39,491 nt of DNA from Nitrospira sp. (GTDB lineage: Bacteria > Nitrospirota > Thermodesulfovibrionia > Thermodesulfovibrionales > SM23-35), in NCBI GenBank assembly GCA_016873615.1, contig VGWX01000016.1:1-39491 (forward strand), read 5' to 3'. A model generated the notes under the pieces. That model was not told the origin of the DNA, searched no databases, and saw nothing but the letters and a program-made list of their open reading frames with translations. A program made the translations under genes and the position numbers. This document shows positions 4,906-6,918 of this stretch, in pieces (position 1 is the first letter of the stretch; each line of letters begins with the position of its first letter).

Positions 4906-5478
4906 TTATATTAAAATAGCTCTGAGCATTTTCATAACTTCATCGTATGAATCAAATATGCCCGAATGTGTATCTACGACAATGTCTTTTCCCTTAGCGC
5001 TTCTTTTAACAAAAATAGCATATGGAACTCTGGGACTTCCTAAAGTCTTATGAACAGAAAAGTCTAAATCGGTTAGTACAGTGTAAAGAACTTTATGCAG
5101 ATTTCTGTAATCTTTAACTTCGTTCTGGTTATTTCCAACCGCAATACTGATTAATTTTACTTTTCCCTTAAGCTTCGGATCATTTTCGATAGCGTAGTTA
5201 AGCTTATTGAGTACAGGAACATTCCTCGGGCAGCTTACACAATAGGTGTTGAATACCTCTATTATGATAAGATTGCCTGGTATTTCCCTGAATGAGAAAT
5301 TAGATTTTTGTGATATACCAAGAGTCTTTCGTTCTTGTTTTGATACAATATCTTTAAAAGTGATACTAGGGAAAGTAGCGCCTTTCTCTATTGGCTTTGT
5401 TTCAGCACATACAGTTGCGATCAATATAAGTTCAAGGCAAAGGACAAAAGACAGGAAGCTTATTCCCCTATTTCTCAA
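4906..5478 (-). CDS. Exported thioredoxin-fold protein (redoxin A)
   Basis: This 190-residue protein has an N-terminal signal segment (hydrophobic from about residues 7-24, probable cleavage near VCA-ET) and a TlpA/ResA-like thioredoxin fold. The redox motif is Cys80-Val-Ser-Cys83 in NTYCVSCPRNVP. The cis-proline region is SPRVPYAIFV. The start is a TTG with GGAG about six bases upstream; no ATG is available near the N-terminus. It overlaps the end of the peroxiredoxin gene by 11 bp, so translation is probably coupled. It is clearly paralogous to the product at 6088-6657 (shared blocks GNN, VHK and R-P-Y/V-P-Y). It likely supplies or receives electrons in the periplasm, but the substrate is unknown. 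Confidence 0.8.
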   Translation of the reverse strand: MRNRGISFLSFVLCLELILIATVCAETKPIEKGATFPSITFKDIVSKQERKTLGISQKSNFSFREIPGNLIIIEVFNTYCVSCPRNVPVLNKLNYAIENDPKLKGKVKLISIAVGNNQNEVKDYRNLHKVLYTVLTDLDFSVHKTLGSPRVPYAIFVKRSAKGKDIVVDTHSGIFDSYDEVMKMLRAILI

Positions 5479-6076
5479 GCTTCTCCAGTTCCTTCATTAA
5501 GGTCTCTAACCCCGGCCTTTTGTTGATGTCGTGAACATCAATATAGCGGATAATCCCCTTTTTGTCTATAACAAACAAGGCCCTCTCAGTGGTTCCGCTG
5601 GAACGTAAAACGCCGTATTTCTTGGCTACTGAACCATGCGGATAGAAATCTGAAAGCACCGGGAACCAGAGTTCCCCCATTTCTTTAGTCCATGTAAATA
5701 ACGTTGGAATATTATCCACAGTAATTCCTATCAATACTGCAGCATTCTTCTCAAATAGGCTTTTCGCTATATTGTATCCAGGCCATTGATCAGAACACAC
5801 AGGAGTCCATGCCGCCGGAACAAAAGAAATTACCACATTCTTTTTGCCAAGGAAATTACTAAGAGATATTTTTTCTCCGGATACTGAAGGAAGGGTAAAA
5901 TCAGGAGCCTTCATACCGGGTTTAAGCTTTGTTTTGCTGTCGACTGGTTTAAGCATCCCAGTGTTGTAGATTTTTCCCTTAAATTGCTCTGATGCGCCGT
6001 AGGCTATTGTTGAAGAATACAGCAAAGCTAAGATTCCTGCGAGAACATAAAAATAAAAATGATTTTTACTGAACAT
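5468..6076 (-). CDS. Exported peroxiredoxin (AhpC/TSA family, apparently 1-Cys)
   Basis: This 202-residue thiol peroxidase has a signal peptide (hydrophobic stretch roughly residues 7-25, likely cleavage after AYG-A). The AhpC/TSA domain starts near residue 50 (PGMKAPDFTLPSVSGE). The peroxidatic cysteine is Cys94 in WTPVCSDQ; the usual P-x3-T/S-x2-C geometry is slightly altered because a tryptophan precedes the threonine. I find no second cysteine, so it should be regenerated by an external thiol partner, and the two flanking redoxins are the obvious candidates. The ATG is preceded by AGGAGGAATAGCC. It reads as the middle gene of a three-gene redox operon. Confidence 0.87.
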   Translation of the reverse strand: MFSKNHFYFYVLAGILALLYSSTIAYGASEQFKGKIYNTGMLKPVDSKTKLKPGMKAPDFTLPSVSGEKISLSNFLGKKNVVISFVPAAWTPVCSDQWPGYNIAKSLFEKNAAVLIGITVDNIPTLFTWTKEMGELWFPVLSDFYPHGSVAKKYGVLRSSGTTERALFVIDKKGIIRYIDVHDINKRPGLETLMKELEKLEK

Positions 6077-6087
6077 GGCTATTCCTC

Positions 6088-6657
6088 CTATTTCAGACCG
6101 GATTCTTCTGATATCATATCTAAAAATTGTTTTGGATCCTGTATGCTTCCGACTTTAGAATAAATTATTGTATTCTTCTTGTCCCCGGTTTTTTTTATCA
6201 CAAAAAAATATGGTGTCCGGACTTCTCCGACAGACTTATGAACAGAATATGACTCATCAGAGAATAAGGGGAATTGAATGTTATACTGGTTTCTGAAGAT
6301 ATCGACTTCGAAAGGATTGTTGCCGGCGCCGACACCTATTATCCTGATTTTATTCTTAAGATCCTCTCTTTTGTTGATTAACTGGTAGAGTTCGTTGACA
6401 ATAGGCGCCTCTTTCTGGCAATACGGACAATACATGCTGAAAATCTCAAGTATCAACAGTTCAGCCTTAATCTGTGAAATCCTGAAAGAACCTTTTCCTG
6501 ACAGTCCGAGATATTCCTTTTCACTTGCTTTTTCAGTCATGGAGAGAGTTATATCCGGAAATGTATCTCCTTTGGCTGGTGTAAGTTCTGCAGCATGGCT
6601 TGATCCTGCAAAAAACATAAAAGCAAGAACTATTAACCCGATTTTAATAATTTTCAT
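6088..6657 (-). CDS. Exported thioredoxin-fold protein (redoxin B)
   Basis: This 189-residue protein has a clear signal peptide (MKIIKIGLIVLAFMFFAGSS, then HA-A) and a thioredoxin-like fold with Cys77-Pro-Tyr-Cys80. The CPYC motif resembles glutaredoxin or DsbA-type active sites more than classic CGPC. It is the first gene of the redoxin-peroxiredoxin-redoxin operon, and 11 nt separate it from the peroxiredoxin start. I chose the ATG at 6657 because GGAGGT lies four bases before it; an in-frame ATG four codons upstream would overlap that site. It is a paralogue of redoxin A at 4906-5478. Confidence 0.82.
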   Translation of the reverse strand: MKIIKIGLIVLAFMFFAGSSHAAELTPAKGDTFPDITLSMTEKASEKEYLGLSGKGSFRISQIKAELLILEIFSMYCPYCQKEAPIVNELYQLINKREDLKNKIRIIGVGAGNNPFEVDIFRNQYNIQFPLFSDESYSVHKSVGEVRTPYFFVIKKTGDKKNTIIYSKVGSIQDPKQFLDMISEESGLK

Positions 6658-6728
6658 CTCTACCTCCATTGAGTTATTTGGATTATTAACAATAGCTTTT
6701 CAATTAACCTATATACCAATTATCTTAT

Positions 6729-6755
6729 ATTTTATCGTAGGAAAGGATTTGTCAA
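6729..6755 (-). promoter_or_regulatory. Putative promoter of the redoxin/peroxiredoxin operon
   Basis: On the minus strand a perfect TTGACA (6755-6750) is followed after 15 bases by TAAAAT (6734-6729). The spacing is shorter than the ideal 17. The site lies about 70 bp upstream of the redoxin B start. Confidence 0.4.
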
Positions 6756-6918
6756 GTAATTCTTTATATATGCCGAAATAGCAGAGTGCAAAATACATGT
6801 TAAATATTCTTGAAAATATACGCCGGGAATGATTTTCTGATTATATTTGTTATAAAAGAATTCTCATTTTTTTAAAAAAGAGCGTCGGATATGAGAATCA
6901 TGAGAATAGTCAGTAATG

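Follow-up and report, generated by a model that had tools for sequence, protein, structure and literature searches.

The closest described parallel to the locus presented here is the ScsB-TlpA-PprX peroxide relay of the Caulobacter cell envelope (Cho et al. 2012, as outlined in excerpts of the review PMC5403849), in which electrons from the cytosol pass through a membrane transporter to an exported thioredoxin-like protein, and from there to an exported peroxiredoxin. A second point of reference is AhpE of Mycobacterium tuberculosis, a 1-Cys peroxiredoxin that, according to excerpted text of PMC8945050, uses mycothiol/mycoredoxin. The thiol-disulfide oxidoreductases of the ResA/StoA/TlpA type, among which TlpA-like proteins carry a WCxxC motif, represent a third, and the Prx-like thiol:disulfide oxidoreductase selenoproteins with UxxC (pfam00578), listed in tables excerpted from PMC13188914 and PMC9312934, represent a fourth.

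Within the stretch of DNA analyzed in this work (the window, 39,491 nucleotides), which comes from a bacterium of an oxygen-avoiding lineage, three open reading frames on the minus strand encode, in order of transcription, redoxin A (CPYC), a peroxiredoxin (Prx), and redoxin B (CVSC). The likeness to the Caulobacter relay, drawn from its description, lies in the combination of an exported redoxin with an exported peroxiredoxin, here encoded together and predicted to be exported; the differences are that no ScsB-type gene lies beside the operon, that the Prx is of a 1-Cys, AhpE-like type, and that a second redoxin, B, is present. AhpE (Rv2238c) is the closest solved sequence to the Prx and shares with it PxxxTxxC and a single Cys, but the Prx of the window differs in its putative export signal at the N-terminus and in its genetic linkage to a redoxin. 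Redoxins A and B are modeled with the fold of the ResA/StoA/TlpA proteins, but both score under the curated ResA cut-off and are coupled to a Prx gene, and A has YCPYC where TlpA-like proteins have WCxxC. Relatives of A resemble the tabulated selenoproteins, again by description, in being UxxC redoxins of the AhpC/TSA or Redoxin type, whereas A of the window itself has Cys at this position. No description of the A-Prx pair was found in the literature searched, which lay mostly outside subscription papers; new to us are how widely the A-Prx unit occurs, that it has selenocysteine (Sec) forms, and that the two redoxins have separate ancestries, in an account that is otherwise ordinary in kind. 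We consider it likely that the operon encodes a peroxide-reducing relay of the cell envelope (periplasm).

Organization of the locus and features of its products

The initial annotation described a peroxiredoxin with a single cysteine, Cys94, between two redoxin genes, in a set of three genes that overlap or nearly touch and of which the last uses a TTG start. All of these points were confirmed: the gap between the A and Prx genes is 11 bp, the Prx and B genes overlap by 11 bp (Table 1), and TTG is the first available start also in 4 of 7 other B genes checked. Ribosome-site-like letters precede the A and Prx genes and, since GGAGGT lies five bases ahead of it, the second in-frame ATG of redoxin A, at 6657, is a better start than the ATG at 6669. 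On one side, the operon is neighbored by recR (identified by eye) and a 4Fe-4S protein (by its Pfam domain) and, on the other, by a divergent gene for pyruvate phosphate dikinase (by eye); no peroxide-defence genes adjoin it in the window or in its family. A PerR box upstream of the operon was considered and rejected, the 11 PerR-box-like matches in the window (≤3 mismatches) being near the 7.1 expected by chance; two of them fall in 6600-6900 and were not used as evidence. Promoter and terminator scans of the window gave results near shuffled levels.

Table 1. Positions, within the window, of the genes and motifs of the redoxin-peroxiredoxin operon
Feature	Position	Strand	Basis
Redoxin A (predicted exported, modeled ResA/TlpA fold, CPYC; first operon gene)	6088..6657	-	ORF open to ATG at 6669
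CPYC codons, redoxin A active site (Cys81, Cys84, numbered from 6669)	6418..6429	-	sequence
AGGAGG, ribosome-binding-like site ahead of Prx ATG	6084..6089	-	sequence
1-Cys peroxiredoxin (predicted exported, AhpC/TSA type; nearest solved structures AhpE)	5468..6076	-	Pfam, PDB sequence search
Peroxidatic Cys94 codon of Prx	5795..5797	-	sequence
Redoxin B (predicted exported, modeled ResA/TlpA fold, CVSC, TTG start)	4906..5478	-	ORF and structure model
CVSC codons, redoxin B active site	5230..5241	-	sequence

The only Cys of the Prx lies within PAAWTPVC and, together with P87 and T91, is invariant in 12 sequences, conforming to the PxxxT/SxxC motif of 1-Cys peroxiredoxins. The protein belongs to Pfam AhpC-TSA (115.8 bits), and its nearest solved relatives are AhpE structures (E 6.5e-23 across residues 51-181); each of the first seven PDB matches is AhpE (Rv2238c/MT2298) or an AhpC/TSA family protein. 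Sixteen NCBIfam models matched the Prx and none scored above its cut-off, such that no curated peroxiredoxin equivalog was assigned; A and B likewise have no NCBIfam model above cut-off. Among the best 80 of 436 relatives, Prx is mostly 1-Cys outside of the signal region. One clade of five loci (L134, L154, L160, L178, L184), two of which carry Sec forms of A, has an additional Cys in a short, QMCMG-like insert, which could act as a resolving Cys.

Both Cys residues of redoxin A, which has no others, are invariant in 54 A-type sequences, while redoxin B has the CVSC motif at residues 80/83 and two further Cys in its signal-like N-terminus. The proposal that the two redoxins are paralogous despite their differing motifs was upheld, and with 33% identity in a genome search (E 4e-29) and 31% over 174 aa in a pairwise comparison (E 1e-34), A and B are, as judged from these alignments, related beyond chance. 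In pairwise comparisons, A also showed a weak kinship to Prx (26%, E 2e-6), and B gave no match to it. Redoxin A matches the Pfam families Redoxin (50 bits) and AhpC-TSA (43.8 bits), and B matches Thioredoxin_8 only, below the cut-off; a Glu located three residues past the second Cys of A is invariant in 14 sequences, and is replaced by Asn in the window's B. Comparison of structure models, suggested in the initial annotation, points to a ResA/TlpA fold for both redoxins: the models are confident (mean pLDDT 93.3 for A and 92.7 for B), their top Foldseek matches are ResA-, DsbE-, and TlpA-type structures, and the two share nearly the same succession of helices and strands. Export of A, Prx, and B is suggested by an N-terminal hydrophobic helix with A-x-A-like ends, modeled at residues 2-23 in both redoxins.

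Conservation of the A-Prx pair and its genomic contexts

The set of loci used for comparison, collected with two peptide patterns, consists of the best 80 of 436 confirmed Prx relatives in named genomes, and favors close relatives; pairs were counted from matches above 120 bits for A and above 200 bits for Prx. These 80 loci are mostly from Desulfobacterota (Syntrophaceae, Syntrophobacteraceae, Desulfobacteraceae, and unplaced deltaproteobacteria) and Nitrospirota, with one Omnitrophota record. Redoxin A is present in 79 of them and in 77 precedes Prx by no more than 300 bp, the exceptions being two loci with other genes in between (L165, L176) and one in which A is absent from the upstream stretch examined (L145). 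In the window's own GTDB family, of which 20 genomes were searched, 15 carry Prx and all 15 have A directly upstream, the pair being split over two contig ends in one case (G017). Searches of the remaining 21 genomes in the order yielded no more than weak Prx-like matches, and among 245 genomes of the phylum a Prx profile at 1e-40 matched eight, all from this family. Among 23 genomes from the class to which one Desulfobacterota relative belongs, 13 carry Prx and in 11 of these A adjoins it; the two remaining Prx are a fragment and a copy that begins at the edge of its contig. A also occurs without Prx in some genomes (e.g. G048, G058), which suggests that it can have other partners. Further A-related sequences were noted away from the operon, namely solitary, putatively exported CPIC/CPVC redoxins in three family genomes (L104:2168-2749, L105:8444-9073, L106:3183-3761), and A-type redoxins with no Prx nearby that adjoin a conserved 428-aa protein (L195:2246-2836, L196:2208-2792).

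The distribution of redoxin B is much narrower. It was found in 7 of the best 80 of 436 loci, all from the window's own family, and is absent from 73; within the family it lies downstream of Prx in 11 of the 15 genomes and is absent from 4, and across the 245 genomes of the phylum a B profile at 1e-20 matched eight, one of them (G003) through its A only. The conserved unit is thus the A-Prx pair and not the trio, and B is a later, lineage-specific addition. Conservation of gene order had been set out as a test that could refute the initial proposal; the pair withstood it, but the trio did not beyond its own family, and was rejected as the ancestral unit.

The contexts in which the pair is found vary between loci. 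A same-strand gene of the Fur/PerR-like or rubrerythrin families lies within 6 kb in 18 of the best 80 of 436 loci, a count that has no chance baseline, and 62 loci have no peroxide-defence cluster; in the three main clusters of this kind, 25 of 25 genes are on the Prx strand. Five loci (L137, L144, L150, L152, L159) display the order Fur-rubrerythrin-Tpx-A-Prx, with two extra genes in between in L144, the identities of the first three genes being taken from L150. In the latter, the regulator scores 108.5 bits for FUR and has as its best NCBIfam match a PerR model (133.9, under the cut-off of 180), the rubrerythrin has a rubredoxin-like domain, and the thiol peroxidase is above its cut-off (206.5 vs 123). 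Another locus (L186) presents a rubrerythrin, a Prx-like gene with an in-frame TGA, a desulfoferrodoxin (above cut-off), and a rubrerythrin-like gene ahead of A-Prx, while in L177 a rubrerythrin-cluster gene, a ferritin, and a flavodoxin-like gene follow Prx. Two of the A-Prx loci also carry further Prx-like ORFs in which the peroxidatic position is occupied by an in-frame TGA (TPVU/TPLU; L144:11386-11778, L152:9181-9600).

Other contexts evoke a different role. Neighbor clusters contain second copies (e.g. L098/L122, L100/L147), such that the 16 loci with a gene of the formate dehydrogenase beta-subunit cluster reduce to 14 distinct ones among the best 80 of 436, on mixed strands, and in seven loci of the same set a multihaem cytochrome c is encoded directly upstream of A on the same strand; in such contexts, the role of the pair could be tied to those enzymes. 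A and B might then be general disulfide reductases (ResA/CcmG-like) that serve exported cytochromes or formate dehydrogenase, with Prx protecting the process, a possibility with which ResA as the nearest solved fold, the seven cytochromes, and formate dehydrogenase genes near at least 14 loci would agree. We regard it as very unlikely, given that A (50.7 bits) and B (32.8 bits) fall far under the ResA cut-off of 170 bits, that no cytochrome c maturation (ccm/ccs) genes were seen, by eye, among the window neighbors or the 25 most frequent neighbor clusters, and that Prx is a near-constant partner of A, in some loci within peroxide-defence operons. The cofactor-assembly system offered as an alternative in the initial annotation is, on the same ResA scores and with no cytochrome-maturation gene beside the redoxins in the window, not favored.

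Selenocysteine forms of redoxin A

In five of the best 80 of 436 loci (L153, L160, L175, L184, L185), an in-frame TGA replaces the codon for the first Cys of A, generating the motifs YUPFC, YUPYC, and YUPHC in a frame that is otherwise open. Bacterial SECIS elements place their loop approximately 13-37 bases after the UGA, with an early G in the loop, and this rule was applied to A matches above 120 bits. A Watson-Crick stem of at least 5 pairs in the SECIS place was found in 5 of 5 Sec forms vs 6 of 75 Cys forms, although four of the five Sec forms have the same hairpin letters and are not independent. These four share CGTTC-CGGGT-GAACG, with the loop 24 bases past the UGA and the usual Pro replaced by Phe (GCG TTC CGG), and L175 has a different hairpin of 7 pairs. 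The folding energy of the 48 nt after the UGA was not distinct from that of shuffled sequences, and the count of placed hairpins alone stood out. In L178, which is a Cys form, the hairpin persists with a paired change (CATTC/GAATG), as a nearby exchange between Sec and Cys would predict, and the hairpin is lost in its relatives L134 and L154.

SelB is above cut-off in four of the five Sec-form genomes and tRNA-Sec also in four, a different genome lacking each. Relatives of A thus combine a UGA at the catalytic Cys, a SECIS-like hairpin, and the Sec machinery that define selenoproteins. The window genome itself has SelB and tRNA-Sec above cut-off although its A is a Cys form; it displays two SelB (G000:C135, G000:C13) and two tRNA-Sec (G000:C84, G000:C13), which may be a real pair or contamination (3.3%). 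Positions at which Cys and Sec replace each other are catalytic nucleophiles, and the presence of UGA and a SECIS-like hairpin at this position in five loci indicates that the first Cys of A is the nucleophile.

These observations also bear on the possibility that Prx is recharged by another donor, a low-molecular-weight thiol or sulfide, with A being separate and merely co-expressed. Sulfide is plentiful in many of the habitats of these bacteria. The use of mycothiol/mycoredoxin by the 1-Cys AhpE, as given in the excerpted PMC8945050, would provide a precedent, but the A-Prx adjacency is kept across phyla while the remaining neighbors vary, and some relatives have Sec at the first active-site position of A, both of which make a separate donor quite improbable.

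Ancestry of redoxin B and the proposed peroxide relay

The A-Prx pair has probably crossed from one phylum to another at least twice. This conclusion has moderate support from a rapidly built tree with 83 Prx rows, made after removal of 11 loci that duplicate family contigs, in which at least two changes under starred branches are required to place the 14 rows of the family. Ten family rows lie near Syntrophobacteraceae, and four, which lack B, lie among other Desulfobacterota. In a more careful tree of redoxins, A (21 rows) forms one clade with support of 100/100 and B (11 rows) another with 95/84, and B groups, apart from A, with four fused redoxins (99/96); a recent tandem duplication of A as the origin of B was rejected on these grounds. 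In the fused proteins (L190:1486-2592, L191:1303-2436, L192:1367-2521, L193:1165-2358), a redoxin domain of the B clade is followed by a C-terminal tail with a conserved CxxCH (CDICHD/CDVCHD), SGAT-like letters, and a weak match to FMN_bind. The flavin motif [S/T]GA[S/T] and the function of ApbE are described in the excerpted text of PMC8238504, in which no redoxin-FMN_bind fusion was noticed.

This kinship suggests a periplasmic thiol-flavin link, and evokes the possibility of two electron entries, in which A would be fed by DsbD/CcdA, B by a periplasmic flavin/haem carrier, and Prx recharged from two pools. In addition to the shared clade, the B profile gives the fused proteins higher scores than the A profile does (e.g. 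211 vs 135 bits), and an ApbE-type gene adjoins the fusion in two of four loci (L190 and, by eye, L193). Conversely, the FMN_bind matches are at or under the Pfam cut-off, with none for one of the four proteins, B itself has no tail, and a search of 20 family genomes at E 0.001, run without a positive control, recovered no copy of the tail; two entries are thus unlikely. The fuller version, an anaerobe peroxide relay with a cytosolic thiol line through A (Sec in several lineages) and a periplasmic flavin/haem redoxin line through B, is more doubtful still, but if it were true, the removal of peroxide could be driven by respiratory electrons from outside the cytosol.

The preferred reading remains an envelope relay centered on A and Prx, in which we infer peroxide as the substrate, A as the direct reductant, export, a membrane donor, and all of the role of B. 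Cys94 of Prx would reduce peroxide and become a sulfenic acid which, Prx having no second Cys, would be attacked by the first Cys of A (Cys81; Sec in some relatives), and Cys84 of A would resolve the resulting A-Prx mixed disulfide. Oxidized A could then receive electrons from the cytosol via a membrane protein of the DsbD/CcdA type; the window genome has three DsbD_TM genes above cut-off, on other contigs, of which one encodes a thioredoxin domain at the C-terminus and another is of CcdA size. B may be an accessory, lineage-specific redoxin that shares the work of A or links the relay to another electron source. A function in peroxide defence is supported by the Fur/PerR-rubrerythrin neighbors (18/80), the UGA at the nucleophile of A, and the ResA/TlpA folds. 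Of the dedicated exported redoxin-Prx relay proposed initially, the part played by A is well supported by gene order, peroxide-defence neighbors, and the Cys/Sec exchange, but that of B, which is not part of the conserved unit (absent from 4/15 and 73/80), is hypothetical.

Anaerobes meet oxygen at the borders of sediments and biofilms, and the clearance of peroxide outside the cytosol has been little studied. The A-Prx pair provides a defined two-gene unit that recurs in sulfate reducers, syntrophs, and one Nitrospirota family, and that offers natural Sec forms at the position of the proposed nucleophile.
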